The notes beneath the pieces are model-generated. The model was not told the origin of the DNA. It saw only the letters and a program-made list of their open reading frames with translations, and searched no databases. DNA of 21,774 bases from positions 1-21,774 of IMG/VR virus record IMGVR_UViG_3300022752_000445. One strand, written 5' to 3'. Shown here piece by piece: positions 1,028 to 17,583 of this stretch (the first letter of the stretch is position 1; each line of letters starts with the position of its first letter). A program made the translations under genes and the position numbers. The DNA is from a virus.

Positions 1028-1035
1028 TATAAATA
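1028..1035 (+). promoter_or_regulatory. Candidate T4-type late promoter (TATAAATA)
   Basis: TATAAATA, the exact T4 late-promoter -10 octamer, lies in the 29-base gap before the gene at 1051. Transcription would start near 1041, directly at the GGAGG Shine-Dalgarno (1041-1045) of that gene. Late control suits a membrane or virion operon. About three such octamers are expected by chance in AT-rich DNA of this length on both strands, so the call rests on its intergenic position. Confidence 0.45.
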
Positions 1036-1050
1036 ATTCTGGAGGTCATT

Positions 1051-1485
1051 ATGCCGACTGAGTTGATTTCATTGATAGGCGGAAGCCTTACTGGATTTTT
1101 GTTTCGATTCATGGCTCAGAAGAGTCAGGATCAAAAAGAGCTATTTGAACGCCTAATTGCTGCCAACAAGCAGACTACCGAAAATCAGGATAAGGCGGCT
1201 CAAAGAGTTCCCCTTGATGTCGGCAAGGGCGTTCGTCAGCTAATCGTTCTAACTGTTCTTTTTGGAACCATTGCTGCACCATTCATTCTACCATTCTTTG
1301 GTGTTCCTACCTTCGTAGAGGTTGATTCAACAAACCCAGAAGCATTCTTTGGCCTATTCCCAGAGACTGCAAAGAAGTATTTTGTTGAGATTAACGGATA
1401 TCTTTATACATCTGAAAATCGTCAAATACTCGTAGCGATTGTCGGTTTCTACTTTGGCACTGCTGCCGCAGGGAGGAAGTCATGA
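1051..1485 (+). CDS. Multi-pass membrane protein, holin-like candidate
   Basis: This 144-residue protein has three hydrophobic segments: about 4-20 (with GGSLTGF), 63-85 (LIVLTVLFGTIAAPFILPFFG) and 125-141 (ILVAIVGFYFGTAAAG). A charged linker (about 22-62, rich in Q, K, E and R) separates the first two. The basic C-terminus is GRKS. Size, three membrane segments and position before a lipobox membrane protein fit three-segment phage holins, which perforate the inner membrane at lysis. No holin family signature is decisive, and no endolysin gene lies in the window. A virion- or host-membrane-modifying role is equally possible. Start: GGAGG at 1041-1045, 5 bases before ATG. The stop overlaps the next ATG (ATGA). 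Confidence 0.6.
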   Translation: MPTELISLIGGSLTGFLFRFMAQKSQDQKELFERLIAANKQTTENQDKAAQRVPLDVGKGVRQLIVLTVLFGTIAAPFILPFFGVPTFVEVDSTNPEAFFGLFPETAKKYFVEINGYLYTSENRQILVAIVGFYFGTAAAGRKS

Positions 1486-9290: not shown

Positions 9291-10684
9291 TCAATCTTCC
9301 AATCGTTTACCTTGACCAGATTGGGAATCTGGCGAGGGCTATATCCATTACCATATCCATGAGGATCGTTCTGGTTTGAATCGGAGATTCCGTCTTGATC
9401 GTCACGCTTGACATCAAAGAGCTTCATCTTGGACCTATCAATACCAACCACGAACTTCTTGTTCACGGTAGCACTATTGTAGCGGTTCTTCAACTGCTTT
9501 ACCAGAATTTGTCCAAGATTTTCAAGATCGTCTGTGCTGATCAAAGCACAGAAGAAGTCTGCTGTGGCAGGAAGACCAAACGATTCTGATGTATCTTCAA
9601 GACCGAAATCGCTATTGGCAAATCCTGAACGGTTTACCTGAGTAGCAGAGAAGATCGGTACATTATATTCTACGGCCAAACCGCGCAGTTCTTCGGCCAC
9701 AGACTTGATGTAGAAGTAACTATTAGTATTGGCATTCTGCTTGATCCTGGCAGAAGCACAGATATTGATATAGTCAACAAAGATGACATCTGGAATGAAA
9801 CGCTTCTTGATCTTGAGTTCGTCTAGAAGATGCTTGAAGTTTGCAACTGATGCACTTGCTGTCGGGTATTCCTTGACAATCAACTTGCCATGAATCTTGC
9901 TCTTGAGAGCTTCCATCTTCTTATCATAGACTGTCTTTGGAAGCTCTTTGAGGCTATCCAAAGTGATGTCTAGTAGATTGGCATCGATGCGCTCGGCAAT
10001 TCTTTCTTCTGCCATTTCACAGGTAATGTAAAGAACATTCAGGTTCTGTACAAGGCAGTTGGCTGCATGATGGCAAAGGAATAGAGACTTACCTACTCCT
10101 GTACCCGCCATGACGATATTGAGAGTCTTGGCAGGAACACCACCCCCAGTGATGGCGTTGAAGAATTCAAGATCGAATGGAATACGCTTTTCTACCTGAT
10201 GATAAAACTGAAAACGCCGTTCAGCATCGTCAATATAGTCGTGACCAATGTGGTTGTCAAAAGAGACAGAAAGAGCATTTGAAAGAATAGTTGGAATTGC
10301 ATTCTTTGTATGAGTCTTCGACTTTCCGTCAAGAATGTGAATAGAATCCATGATAGCATTGTAAACTGCCTTATCCTTTACATGGTTTTCAGTTTGCTCA
10401 ACAAGCCAATTGATATCTGTAAGATCTGTTTCGGTAAAGATGCTTTCAATACACTTAGAGCATTCTGTGTATTCATCCTCAGAAACTAGATCAAGCTTTG
10501 ATAGGCTAATATCAACAGCCTCCCTTGTGGGGAGGCTGTTGTACTTGGTAATGAAGTCAGAGATCAGACCGAAGATCTTCTTATTGGCATTTCCTGAAAA
10601 GTATTCTTCTTTGAGGAATGGATGAACCTTACGAGCGTAAGTTTCATTCGTCGCCAGATTCTTCAATATAACTGATTCCATCAT
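9287..10684 (-). CDS. 41: Replicative DnaB-like helicase, T4 gp41-type
   Basis: This 465-residue RecA-fold ring helicase moves 5'-3' on the lagging strand. Walker A is 'AGTGVGKSLFLCHHAA' (about 193-208). Walker B lies in 'PDVIFVDYINICA'. A DnaB-type 'ATQVNRSGF' and 'SESFGLPATADFFCAL' follow, and the N-terminal 140 residues are the helical primase/loader-interaction domain. The frame also allows TTG at 10690. ATG at 10684 is chosen because GGAGAGG sits 9 bases before it; ATG 10681 is another option. The start lies inside the preceding small gene (41-base overlap). Codons for residues about 49-58 form a perfect 12-bp hairpin in the mRNA, described separately. Confidence 0.93.
   Translation of the reverse strand: MMESVILKNLATNETYARKVHPFLKEEYFSGNANKKIFGLISDFITKYNSLPTREAVDISLSKLDLVSEDEYTECSKCIESIFTETDLTDINWLVEQTENHVKDKAVYNAIMDSIHILDGKSKTHTKNAIPTILSNALSVSFDNHIGHDYIDDAERRFQFYHQVEKRIPFDLEFFNAITGGGVPAKTLNIVMAGTGVGKSLFLCHHAANCLVQNLNVLYITCEMAEERIAERIDANLLDITLDSLKELPKTVYDKKMEALKSKIHGKLIVKEYPTASASVANFKHLLDELKIKKRFIPDVIFVDYINICASARIKQNANTNSYFYIKSVAEELRGLAVEYNVPIFSATQVNRSGFANSDFGLEDTSESFGLPATADFFCALISTDDLENLGQILVKQLKNRYNSATVNKKFVVGIDRSKMKLFDVKRDDQDGISDSNQNDPHGYGNGYSPRQIPNLVKVNDWKIE
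10513..10541 (-). repeat. Perfect 12-bp inverted repeat with 5-nt loop inside helicase gene
   Basis: Arms CAACAGCCTCCC and GGGAGGCTGTTG flank a 5-base loop (CACAA in mRNA sense). The stem is GC-rich and perfect. It encodes N-S-L-P-T-R-E-A-V-D in gp41. No U-tract follows on either strand, so it is not a standard terminator. By a rough calculation a match this good with so short a loop is expected about 0.01 times in this window. Confidence 0.85.
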
Positions 10685-10961
10685 CTTCAATTACCTCTCC
10701 GTCGAATTCGTCACCAATTGTTCCATCGCGCTCTTCTAGTAACTTAACTAGAATATCTCCGACAACTTGATTGAACTGCTCTTTGTCGGTATCGGAAACT
10801 TCGCCTTTCACTATATCATAGTTGAAATTTAAAACAAGGCTTTCGTTCAATTCTTCAACCTTGATAACACCATATTGAATCGCAATGCCGGAAAACTTTC
10901 CTTCTGCGATTTCAATTGCAGCATGTTCGCTTCCGTCATTATTTACGATATTATACTTCAT
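10644..10961 (-). CDS. Conserved small acidic phage protein
   Basis: This 105-residue protein has no membrane segment or known domain. The N-terminal half looks like a small beta fold (IEIAEGKFSGIAIQYGVIKV, then SLVLNFNYDIV). It is followed by a helix (QFNQVVGDILVKLLEE) and a very acidic tail (GEVIEDDGISYIEESGDE). I recall similar small acidic proteins beside replication genes in T4-like phages of marine bacteria, without a known role. The open frame extends upstream to 11078, but ATG 10961 is preferred: it restarts just inside the previous gene (11-base overlap) and has an AAAGAA/GAAG purine stretch before it. Its 3' end carries the SD and start of gp41. A helper of the replisome is a guess from position only. 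Confidence 0.7.
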   Translation of the reverse strand: MKYNIVNNDGSEHAAIEIAEGKFSGIAIQYGVIKVEELNESLVLNFNYDIVKGEVSDTDKEQFNQVVGDILVKLLEERDGTIGDEFDGEVIEDDGISYIEESGDE

Positions 10962-11214
10962 ATTCTTCAATTCTTTCTTTTGCTTCTTCGATTGACATAT
11001 CTTCAATGAAGCATGGGGTTCCCGCTCCAACCCATGCACCAATAATATTGAATTCAAAATATTCAACAGCTTCATCAAATGTCATTCCTTCTTCCATCAG
11101 ATTGTTGATTATCTTCTTCTGACTGTATGCGGCGATTGGTTGATTTTCACCAAATCTCCACATGAAACCAAGGAATGCATTATCATGACCATCACAAAAA
11201 AGTACATTATCCAT
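10951..11214 (-). CDS. Conserved small phage protein, 'FCDGHDNAFLG...YFEFN..GAWVG' type
   Basis: This 87-residue protein has a recognisable pattern: 'VLFCDGHDNAFLGFMWRFG' at the N-terminus, 'AAYSQKKIINNLMEEGMTFDEAVEYFEFNIIGAWVG' in the middle and 'GTPCFI' near the end. I have seen this arrangement in many otherwise unrelated phages and some bacteria, always as a small protein of unknown function. ATG 11214 is preferred over the longer frame from 11241, which would overlap the dehydratase gene. GAGG lies 6 bases before ATG 11214, and the start is 8 bases after the previous stop. It overlaps the following gene by 11 bases. Confidence 0.75.
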   Translation of the reverse strand: MDNVLFCDGHDNAFLGFMWRFGENQPIAAYSQKKIINNLMEEGMTFDEAVEYFEFNIIGAWVGAGTPCFIEDMSIEEAKERIEEYEV

Positions 11215-11221
11215 GTTTACC

Positions 11222-12226
11222 TCAAATCGTGTTAAATTCAAGCTTTGGGTTCTGAAGCTTGTGCATCCAGTAATCGGCCATCCCTCCCATCATCTCTTCA
11301 AATGAAGTTGTTGGCTCCCAACCCATTTCACGCTTTGCCTTACTAGCATCGCCACGAAGATAATGCAATTCTTCTGGTCGTTCATACTTCTTATCAGTCT
11401 TGACATACTTGCGATAATCCATGCCAAGATGTTCGAATACAAATTCAACCATGTCTTCTACTGAATATGCATATCCAGTAGCAAGAACATAATCGTCTGC
11501 CTTTGGCATCTGAAGCATGTTCCACATTCCGCGTACATAATCCCTCGCATGGCCCCAGTCTCTCTTTGCTCGTAGATTTCCTAGAATAAGTTCATTTGCC
11601 ATACCCAACTTAATCTTTGCTGCCTGTAGAGCAACCTTGTTGGTTACGAAGTTGATGCCTCTGCGAGGAGATTCGTGGTTGAACAAAATCCCTGAGCAAA
11701 TAAACATTCCATATGCATTTCTATAGTTGTGGCAAAGATTATGGGCATAAAGCTTTGCACAGCCATATGGACTCACAGGACTCATGTGAGTAGTTTCTCT
11801 CTGGTATCCATCAGAGTCACAAGAGTTTCCGAACATCTCAGAAGTGGCTGCATGGTAAACCTTAGTCTTTGGCGAGAATCTACGAACTGCTTCAAGTACC
11901 GCCAGAGTACCACCACCATTCACATCAAGGGTATACTTTGGAAGATCGAATGAAATCTGAACATGAGATTGTGCTGCTAGATGATATAGTTCATCCGGCT
12001 GAAGCTTTTGCACATTTGTTTCAATACTGATCGGATCGGTAAGATCTGCGTAGTGAAGCTGAATCTTTCCTTGCTCCCAAATATCATTGATACGAGTTGT
12101 CTGAGATTCTGGAACAGAGTTTCTACGAACTGTTCCATGAACTTCATATCCCTTCTCAACAAGCATCTCTGCGAGATAAGAAGCGTCCTGGCCATTGGCC
12201 CCGATGATAAGTGCTTTCTTAACCAT
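11222..12226 (-). CDS. gmd: GDP-mannose 4,6-dehydratase
   Basis: It converts GDP-D-mannose to GDP-4-keto-6-deoxymannose, precursor of GDP-fucose, GDP-rhamnose and related sugars. The 334-residue extended short-chain dehydrogenase has the NADP-binding loop '[14 protein letters not shown]' (residues 7-20), 'GTVRRNS' (31-37), 'TSEMFGN' with catalytic Thr128 and Glu130, Tyr154-x3-Lys158 (SPYGCAK), 'PRRGINFVT' (188-195) and '[17 protein letters not shown]' (215-231), all hallmarks of GMD. ATG 12226 has GGAGG 9 bases upstream; the longer frame to 12256 would run into uvsX. It overlaps the uvsX end by 8 bases. No epimerase/reductase partner is visible, so it may feed a host pathway or modify host glycans; this part is inference. 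Confidence 0.93.
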
Positions 12227-13229
12227 ACTTGAATTCCTCCTGTACCTTTTCATCAATTTGCTTTAGAATATCAGCGGTGAAGTACTTCTCAGGTTCTTCG
12301 TTGATATGCTTTTCGAACACCTTAGTACCATCAGGAAGTTCAATCTTAGTAGAGTTCTTCTTGAAGATACCACAATCCAAGGCAAGGTCAACAAGACCGT
12401 AGTAACGATTCAAACCGCTATCGAAGTTCAGTTGAACCTGAACGATCTTATTTTCCTTGGTTAGTCGGCTCTTGTAAAGCTTGCAAGTAATTAGATTACC
12501 TACAACTTCATCATCCTGCTTATCCTTCTTCTTGGATAGAGTTACGATAGTAGAAGCCGCATATTTTAGACCAGATCCACCACCAAGTTCCTTTGTTGGA
12601 ACATAGGCTCCTACTACATCGTAGGTGTGATTCGTCATAAGCATGGGAATCTTTGCCTTACCCAACTTGAGAGTAAGAACACGGAATGTTCCCTTGATAA
12701 CTTGTGCGCGAGTCATGTCGCGGGTGTTCTTGCCTTCAGCGACATCGTTCATTTCCTTTGCTGTGCTCAACATGCCCAGCGAGTCAAGAACAATCATCAT
12801 TGGCTTGCGTTCTGATTCATCTGTTGCAAGAACCTTGTCAACAATGGTCAAGCACTGATGGCGAAAGTCTTCTACTGTTTCGACTGGAAAAACAGCAATT
12901 CGTTTTGGGTCCACTCCACGATCAGTAAACATGTCACTGGTTACTGCCTGTTCGGTATCGAAGTAGAGTACTACGCCTTCCGGGTTCGCTGCCAGAAATT
13001 GTGCCACGATACCAATGCTGAAGTAAGTCTTGCCAGTAGCAGATTCACCAGCCAGACAGGTAATCTTGTTATCAGGTAGACCATCAAATAGACTGCCAGA
13101 TAACAGAGCATTAAACACATAAGACCCAGTATCAATATAGCCGCCAACATCAGATCCATCAAGTCCATCTTCGACTTTACTTGCGAATTTGTTTCCTGAG
13201 ACATTAATCATTTCCTTTAAAAAATCCAT
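12219..13229 (-). CDS. uvsX: UvsX/RecA-type recombinase
   Basis: This 336-residue strand-exchange ATPase drives recombination-dependent replication and repair. Walker A is '[10 protein letters not shown]' (61-70). The RecA-like catalytic Glu93 lies in 'LYFDTEQA', and Walker B is '[11 protein letters not shown]' with Asp149. A DNA-binding-loop-like region with '[16 protein letters not shown]' follows at about 218-233, similar to RecA L2 and its flanks. Length is below T4 UvsX (about 390) but typical of relatives outside the T4 genus. The start has AAGGAG 4 bases upstream and lies 8 bases after the polymerase stop. The order polymerase-uvsX-helicase-primase matches the replication block of T4-superfamily phages, here with gmd inserted. 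Confidence 0.92.
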
Positions 13230-16129: not shown

Positions 16130-16715
16130 AACTCCATCCTTTAATATTATTTCTACAACGATATCTAATAGTACTTGCTGGTAAATTGGTTTCTAAAGAC
16201 GCTTCATACGAACTAAACCACTTTTTATCTCCAAAAATTGGTTTTTTTCCTTTAGATTTACCCAATAATCTTACCATTTCTTTATGTTTGTCCGAATAGG
16301 GTCCAATTTTGTGTTGCTTTAATCTATTTTTTAGTTCTGTCTGATATGTCTCTGAAAAGAAAAATGTTTTTGCCTTTTTTCTGGCTTCAACTGATGCTTT
16401 TGCGCCTAAATCAGGTCTTCTATTTCTTTTCATATTTTCTGAGCAAGCTTTTATTTTTTTGGGGGATTTGGATTTTCCTCCCTTTTTGCCAGCTTCAGAA
16501 GCACCTTGTAAGAATTTTCCATGTCTGCAAACCATGTCACCTTGTTTTAAATGAACAGAAAAATGTTCTTCTGGTGTCAAGAGTTTTAAATTTAATGGGT
16601 CGTTATTTTCTCTATTTCCATCTATATGGTGTATATGCATTCCTTTAGGAACTTTTACTCCATAATAGTTTTCATATATTTTTTTATATATTCTAGATTG
16701 TACTCTTTTTTTCAT
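16122..16715 (-). CDS. HNH homing endonuclease with C-terminal NUMOD/IENR1-type DNA-binding module
   Basis: This 197-residue protein has an HNH core at residues about 25-56: 'GMHIHHIDGNRENNDPLNLKLL' and then 'EEHFSVH', with the catalytic His pair and the N-x3-P-x-N-L element typical of phage HNH homing nucleases. The middle is strongly basic (GKKGGKSKSPKKIK). The end 'KWFSSYEASLETNLPASTIRYRC' plus 'KGWSYE' is an IENR1/NUMOD-type helix-turn-helix used for DNA recognition. It is free-standing and AT-rich and sits between dut and the DUF1599-type gene, both intact. No SD is visible before ATG 16715. Instead a perfect 8-bp inverted repeat ends on the A of the start codon. Confidence 0.87.
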   Translation of the reverse strand: MKKRVQSRIYKKIYENYYGVKVPKGMHIHHIDGNRENNDPLNLKLLTPEEHFSVHLKQGDMVCRHGKFLQGASEAGKKGGKSKSPKKIKACSENMKRNRRPDLGAKASVEARKKAKTFFFSETYQTELKNRLKQHKIGPYSDKHKEMVRLLGKSKGKKPIFGDKKWFSSYEASLETNLPASTIRYRCRNNIKGWSYE

Positions 16716-16735
16716 CTAACTATATATTAGTTAGA
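16715..16735 (-). repeat. Perfect inverted repeat over the HNH start codon
   Basis: On the - strand, TCTAACTA and TAGTTAGA flank ATATA, and the last A is the first base of the start codon. It could be an operator, or an RNA hairpin hiding the start. TTGTCA (16746-16741), a 16-base spacer and TATAGT (16724-16719) also form a possible promoter, but that -10 lies only 3 bases before ATG. Confidence 0.5.
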
Positions 16736-16746
16736 CTATCTGACAA

Positions 16747-17253
16747 CTATACTCCTGTGCTCCCGAAGCCACCGCTTCTATCTGTTTTCTGTTCCGGTCT
16801 TTCTGTTAGATGCAAGTAAGTAAAATATTCCTTTCTTACAAGTTCAATCTGGGCAATTCGTTCGCCATGAGAAATATCATAAGAAATATCACTGGTATTT
16901 ACCACCGGAATCATTAGCTCCTCAACATAATCAGAATCAATAACTCCTTCACAATTGGCCAGAATCAATCCCTTCTTGATTGAAAGACCAGATCGTGGGT
17001 GCATTCTCAGAGAATAGTGCTCAGGAATATCGAAGATGATTCCTGTTGGAATCAGGATTCTTTCTTTAGGTCCAATACGAATACCTACAGTATTTTCATC
17101 CGTAGTAGTTGTACTCTTACTATTATATCTGTCGTAAGTTACGATTGTACTATTCTTTAGATATGCATAAACATCAACACAAGCCGAGTTTTCGGTTTGT
17201 AGTGATGGGCATTGTACCGTTGGGTGTAATTTATAAATTCCTAATGATTGCAT
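16747..17253 (-). CDS. dut: dUTPase (deoxyuridine triphosphatase)
   Basis: It hydrolyses dUTP to dUMP, preventing uracil incorporation and feeding ThyX. The 168-residue trimer-type enzyme shows all five motifs: I 'SACVDVYAY' (Asp27), II 'HPRSGLSIKKG' (85-95), III 'EGVIDSDYVEEL' (102-113), IV 'HGERIAQIEL' (129-138) and V 'DRSGGFGSTG' (158-167). Motif III has Val-Glu where Arg-Gly is usual, and motif I has Cys-Val for the usual Gly-x. A Ser/Thr-rich insert (about 34-56) lengthens the region between motifs I and II. ATG 17253 is chosen over GTG 17268 because the GTG overlaps the promoter's -10 region. There is no SD, and a leaderless promoter is predicted. Confidence 0.92.
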   Translation of the reverse strand: MQSLGIYKLHPTVQCPSLQTENSACVDVYAYLKNSTIVTYDRYNSKSTTTTDENTVGIRIGPKERILIPTGIIFDIPEHYSLRMHPRSGLSIKKGLILANCEGVIDSDYVEELMIPVVNTSDISYDISHGERIAQIELVRKEYFTYLHLTERPEQKTDRSGGFGSTGV

Positions 17254-17259
17254 AATCAA

Positions 17260-17287
17260 ATAATACACTAAAAACTAGGAATGTCAA
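17260..17287 (-). promoter_or_regulatory. Sigma-70-type promoter for dut, probably leaderless
   Basis: On the - strand: -35 TTGACA (17287-17282, perfect), a 16-base spacer, -10 TATTAT (17265-17260, 5 of 6), then 6 bases (TTGATT) and ATG 17253. The predicted RNA start coincides with the ATG. The -35 overlaps the stop codon of the upstream gene. It separates the early-type dut and replication genes from the late-type fibre locus. Confidence 0.65.
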
Positions 17288-17583
17288 GCATCTACAGCGT
17301 CAGAAAATTCTGTATTTGCTTTTATCCAATTATATGCTACACTAAGAGGATTTCCTTCTGAATCTAATATGATAGGACTAAACACAATATCATAAGTATC
17401 TGAAAAAATTTCATACTTATAGTTTATTATTGGCCTAAAACCGCTATTTCTTTTTGTTTCATCAATATAACCAGCCAGATTTATAATAACATGTTTGTCT
17501 TTATTTTTTATAGTTAGACTATTGATGTGCCAATATGTTACATCTATTCCCTGATTATTTGTAATTGTTTTTTCTAATCCCAT
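17284..17583 (-). CDS. Small phage protein downstream of tail fibre
   Basis: This 99-residue soluble protein opens 'MGLEKTITNNQGIDVTYWHI', followed by a beta-rich stretch (SLTIKNKDKHVIINLAGYID) and a later 'YDIVFSPIIL' strand. It ends 'YNWIKANTEFSDAVDA'. Small proteins with this opening (MGL..EI...NG..V.YH.I) are common in phage tail or fibre loci as far as I recall, with no assigned function. SD AAGGAG lies 7 bases before ATG. It is 10 bases downstream of the fibre gene and probably cotranscribed with it. Its stop codon lies within the dut promoter. A fibre accessory or virion role is inferred. Confidence 0.65.
   Translation of the reverse strand: MGLEKTITNNQGIDVTYWHINSLTIKNKDKHVIINLAGYIDETKRNSGFRPIINYKYEIFSDTYDIVFSPIILDSEGNPLSVAYNWIKANTEFSDAVDA

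Follow-up and report, generated by a model that had tools for sequence, protein, structure and literature searches.

Gene content of the window and the layout before dut and pol

The viral record IMGVR_UViG_3300022752_000445 was analyzed at its entire length of 21,774 bases (hereafter the window) and represents a T4-like phage. Its minus strand carries the genes for a DNA polymerase, a UvsX/RecA-like protein, a DnaB-like helicase, a primase-like protein, ThyX, a class II ribonucleotide reductase and a dUTPase. These genes are arranged in the order dut-(HNH)-mazG-like-pol-uvsX-gp41-gp61-thyX-nrdJ, in which the homologs of gp43, UvsX, gp41 and gp61 follow each other as in a T4-like replication cluster. 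dut is the head of the cluster, which sits downstream of collagen-like fibre genes, and the order dut-gp43-uvsX-gp41 is common to phiM12 and the window. The polymerase belongs to family B and is nearest to gp43 of a marine T4-like cyanophage (52% identity). In addition, two overlapping small ORFs with putative TTG starts were found between the sugar enzyme and helicase genes (10644-11241). The sequence CTAACTAATATATAGTTAG (16716-16737) forms a short inverted repeat directly before the ATG of the HNH gene at 16715, and this gene has promoter-like boxes 3 nt from its ATG; the arrangement is conserved at G007:82248.

Table 1. Features of the window bearing on the starts of dut and pol, with SD-led genes for contrast.
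Feature	Position	Strand	Remarks
99-aa ORF upstream of dut	17284..17583	-	Ends in the dut -35 box
dut -35 box, TTGACA	17287-17282	-	Sequence; conserved in 29/79 dut relatives
dut -10 box, TATTAT	17265-17260	-	First T at -12 from ATG
dut TTGATT, 6 nt between -10 box and ATG	17254..17259	-	Positions -6 to -1 by prediction; relatives and viral contigs peak at offset 6
dut ATG	17253-17251	-	A at 17253 is the predicted RNA start
dut, dUTPase, 168 aa	16747..17253	-	PF00692, E 1e-18; start aligned across relatives
pol -35 box, TTGCAA	15809-15804	-	Within end of upstream gene; spacer 16
pol -10 box, TATAAT	15787-15782	-	First T at -12; 6 nt (CGCCGC) before ATG; conserved in L082-L093
pol ATG	15775-15773	-	
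DNA polymerase, family B, gp43-like, 845 aa	13238..15775	-	PF00136, PF03104
UvsX/RecA-like gene	12219..13229	-	SD AAGGAG; same direction as pol; SD-led contrast
Late-type box TATAAATA with leader, SD TGGAGG and ATG at 1051	1028..1051	+	Contrast case

The initial annotation had described TTGACA, a 16-nt spacer, TATTAT, 6 nt and ATG before dut, and this layout is exact to the letter on the minus strand, where the spacer reads TTCCTAGTTTTTAGTG. Its statement that dut and pol share both the spacer and the offset, i.e., the number of nucleotides between the -10 box and the ATG (16/6), and that both lack an SD, was also confirmed in the sequence. Other genes of the window do have an SD (AAGGAG before uvsX and nrdJ, TGGAGG before the gene at 1051). 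In the scanned part of the window, the dut promoter was among the two best of 63 promoter-like sites. Similar to the TA-led leaderless genes (PMC3160421), dut and pol possess a TANNNT motif whose first T is at -12 and no SD.

The 16/6 layout was found at 2 of the 24 gene starts of the window, while a first-order model built on the upstream regions of the window predicted 0.007 (P = 2e-5). When any spacer of 15-18 and any offset of 4-8 were accepted, P was 0.006. As the thresholds of this test were chosen after the data had been seen, conservation is the real test. Moreover, a scan of the whole window that allowed three mismatches gave 3 matches vs. 1.5 expected, which was not significant, and the evidence is thus the position at gene starts together with conservation.

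Conservation of the layout in relatives and viral contigs

Upstream DNA could be read for 79 dut relatives, of which 29 had sigma70-type boxes at offset 6 from the homologous ATG. The remaining 50 had an SD-like core instead, with the ATG at the same place; the SD pattern was loose, and L020, whose geometry is right and whose -10 box is weak (TACTCT), was counted as SD-like. Because the SD-bearing dUTPases align to the same methionine, the ATG of dut is very probably the true start. The GTG at 17268, which is the start of dut in the ORF list, was rejected, since it is upstream of the predicted RNA start and the relatives share the ATG instead. The leaderless-type dUTPases span from 98% to about 50% protein identity, and two further ones with offset 6 (47% and 41%) were found in the blind scan of viral contigs described below. 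The spacer was 17 rather than 16 in L016-L019, and in L004 the letters of spacer and promoter were changed with the geometry the same. In the near relatives L002 and L005-L008, the 36-nt promoter was 92-97% identical to that of the window, and the DNA just upstream was 28-32% identical.

The TGA inside the dut -35 box of the window (17282-17287) is the stop codon of the upstream 99-aa ORF, in whose place several relatives have unrelated sequence. The TGA of this box also terminates an upstream ORF in several relatives (L003, L004, L005, L006, L007, L012, and L020). As these ORFs are mostly unrelated among the relatives, the border of the fibre module lies at the -35 box.

The layout is kept throughout the window's polymerase clade (13 of 13), and four polymerases elsewhere on the tree (L102, L109, L113, and L123) also carry it. 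On the polymerase tree, the layout requires 4 changes, of which at least 3 are forced by well-supported branches. With 29 of the 79 dut relatives and 13 of the 13 clade polymerases keeping the layout, the earlier judgment that coincidence was unlikely has been borne out. Its description of dut and pol as two independent cases was right about the exact repetition and understated the matter, as each of the two layouts is conserved across relatives. In L173 (G012:25985) and L193 (G010:22643), the pol promoter and the first codons (MSFYT) are duplicated just upstream of dut, where the duplicated promoter heads a 73-aa ORF.

The lineage was sampled with 14 records, which include one near-duplicate pair, are mostly fragments and have gene starts taken from simple ORF calls. 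In these records, sigma70-like boxes preceded 41 starts at offset 6 and 0-11 starts at any other offset from 0 to 20, with 0-1 starts at each of the offsets 4, 5, 7, and 8. The highest other offset was 20, with 11 starts that belong mostly to the uvsX family and have an SD in between. Internal ATGs of the same 14 records gave a flat distribution with no peak at offset 6. The rows at offset 6 are redundant, with 37 starts falling into 11 families: dut, pol, UvsY, gp55, a peptidase-like protein, an HNH gene, sugar/glycosyl genes and small ORFs. TANNNT alone at offset 6 was not clearly enriched and was rejected as too weak a measure of the class; the class is thus a minority of genes, and the -35 box is needed to see it.

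A blind scan of 2.9 million viral contigs was also conducted with the exact string TTGACA-16-TATAAT-N-ATG, in which the ATG was placed at set distances, and the fraction of ATGs opening an ORF of ≥50 aa was determined among the matches listed. This fraction was 24% at offset 5, 72% at offset 6, 55% at offset 7, and 44% at offset 9 of the matches listed, vs. a background of 21% for any ATG in such DNA; the difference between offsets 6 and 5 was significant (P = 3e-13). At offset 5, the A would be located before +1 and remain untranscribed; at offset 6, it would be the first base of the RNA. Among the matches listed, 19 of the 144 ORFs at offsets 6 and 7 matched a set of T4-like replication and related proteins (dut, gp43, gp41, gp61, UvsX/Y/W, gp62, gp47, gp55, and one sugar enzyme), compared with 2 of the 27 ORFs at offset 5 and none of the 48 at offset 9. 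A pyrimidine at -1 was common and equally so in the matches that open no ORF; this initiator signature was thus rejected as additional proof of the RNA start. Overall, the comparison of the motif before starts with controls, which the initial annotation had proposed as a check, was strongly positive in both the relatives and the viral collection, and the layout, as in the TA-led genes, is commoner before starts than in controls.

No offset-6 layout was seen in partial scans of Syn9, T4, phiM12, ACP17, and V45v66. A search for MotA_activ in the relatives, run without a positive control, gave no match, and a consensus -35 box is present where the MotA box would be expected. Neither a host link nor a close relative of the window phage was found among 84,980 genomes. 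An actinobacterial host as the cause of the leaderless genes was rejected, given that no WhiB was found in the relatives and that these genomes provided no host link; the tRNAs did not point clearly either way.

Late gp55-type boxes at offset 5

In the lineage records, the gp55-type late box NATAAATA was found at offset 5 before 20 starts of 9 families, which include a baseplate wedge protein and tail proteins, vs. 1-3 starts each at offsets 3, 4, 6, and 7. Smaller peaks of this box were found at offsets 15 and 18, with SD-led genes among them. Similarly, 72% of the ATGs at offset 5 from GTATAAATACT opened ORFs among the viral-contig matches listed, vs. 37% at offset 4 (P = 2e-7). A family of ~71-82 aa (MILRELFYFDKETLEP...) was often found behind an offset-5 late box in the viral contigs (L825, L740, L761, L808, L830, L847, and others); among isolates, it had only weak matches, in jumbo phages.

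The late box occupies positions -13 to -6 relative to +1 and the sigma70-type -10 box positions -12 to -7, and these positions would call for the one-base difference between offsets 6 and 5. The strongest single argument for the predicted RNA start on the A of the ATG is that two different promoter types point to one and the same base. The initial annotation had proposed an early-gene class of nucleotide and replication genes. This was not supported: the late box stands at offset 5 before structural genes, the sigma70-type cases are also found before glycosyltransferases and an HNH gene, and an early-only class was rejected once the late boxes had been found.

In the scanned regions of HTVC008M and Melnitz, only 1-2 cases of each kind (offset 6 and late box at offset 5) were found, and these phages are test systems rather than proof. 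For instance, the gp25 gene of HTVC008M has TATAAATA 5 nt before its annotated ATG. HTVC008M is a cultured relative, which makes the leaderless question testable now.

Predicted leaderless expression and comparison with known systems

Geometry, conservation, enrichment and exact offsets were all observed directly. The best explanation for the dut site, and one in which we have considerable confidence, is a sigma70-type promoter fused to the start codon from which a leaderless mRNA is predicted; from the sequence we infer its promoter activity, the RNA start, leaderless translation and a benefit. RNA polymerase would place +1 on the A of the dut ATG, seven bases past the -10 box. The resulting dut mRNA would have neither leader nor SD, and ribosomes would initiate on its 5'-terminal AUG. 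pol carries a separate copy of the layout within the cluster. We hypothesize that translation of the ORF relies chiefly on transcripts of its promoter and that, for lack of an SD, read-through RNA of the variable tail-fibre genes upstream contributes little.

If the promoter is real, dut could still be expressed mainly from read-through RNA of the upstream fibre genes, which are co-oriented with it at a distance of only 30 nt, so that the abutting promoter would be minor and the absence of a leader incidental. We regard this as unlikely, as dut would have no SD on such RNA, promoter and offset are retained in relatives whose upstream genes differ, and the onset at offset 6 is sharp across viruses. 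Likewise unlikely is an RNA start 1-3 nt upstream or downstream of the A, which would leave a leader of a few nucleotides at most or begin the RNA within the codon. The start choice of RNA polymerase varies and offset 7 also yielded 55% ORFs among the viral-contig matches listed, but the lineage peak is clearly at offset 6, with 41 starts vs. 0-1 at offsets 5, 7, and 8. The joining of unrelated upstream sequences at the -35 box would also fit the conserved 36 bp serving chiefly as a landing site for recombination at the border of the variable fibre module; this is very improbable, given that the same geometry is found before pol, uvsY, and gp55, away from that border, and that the spacer sequence may change while the geometry holds. 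Finally, chance in an AT-rich genome, for which only the loose whole-window scan would speak, has almost no probability, as it is already refuted by conservation and is also opposed by the gene-start test, the offset peaks and the viral-contig scan.

In this lineage, the fusion of promoter and start codon would not be limited to one temporal class, and the post-gp55 promoter type NATAAATA would also be fused to ATGs, one base closer. The best reading of the combined results is that promoters of two types are fused to start codons, probably giving leaderless mRNAs for part of the replication genes and part of the late genes. A wider proposal, on which our confidence is evenly divided, is that a wide set of uncultured T4-like phages have fused host sigma70 and phage gp55 promoters to start codons at the exact base that each demands; leaderless mRNAs would then encode the late sigma factor together with some of the replication and virion proteins, possibly keeping translation going when SD-led initiation is altered during infection. 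If true, promoters would directly reveal the start sites in many environmental phages, and gene starts in these phages could be corrected.

Leaderless expression is already well known in some bacterial phyla and for single phage genes. A description of it in T4-like phages or for gp55-type late promoters was not found in the open-licence papers searched. The Thermus phage phiYS40 is lytic and has leaderless transcripts, and its host lineage itself uses many leaderless genes. Lytic growth with leaderless transcripts, which are predicted here, is shared with phiYS40, which is an unrelated phage type. In the -10-adjacent leaderless genes of Deinococcus-Thermus and Actinobacteria, TANNNT is located ~12 bp before the start (PMC3160421; PMC12340547). 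The first T of the -10 box at -12, the lack of an SD and the predicted RNA start at the start codon are shared with these genes. Different from them, the genes described here belong to T4-like phages, have a full -35 box at fixed spacing and are a minority, and a second version is built on a phage late promoter. Similar to lambda cI (PMC3160421; PMC9031893), these phage genes are expected to be read from a 5'-terminal AUG; cI, however, is a single repressor gene, whereas several replication and structural genes of T4-like phages are involved here.

T4 transcription relies on sigma70 for early, MotA/AsiA for middle and gp55 for late genes (PMC2988020; PMC6024815), and its late genes are read from an 8-bp TATA box located roughly one helical turn upstream of +1 (PMC2988020). 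The window lineage shares with T4 the homologous pol/uvsX/gp41 cluster, a gp55 homolog and the late box TATAAATA. In the scanned regions of T4, however, the late boxes are separated from the ATG by 12-36 nt, without any directly adjoining it, whereas the distance in the window lineage is 5 nt.
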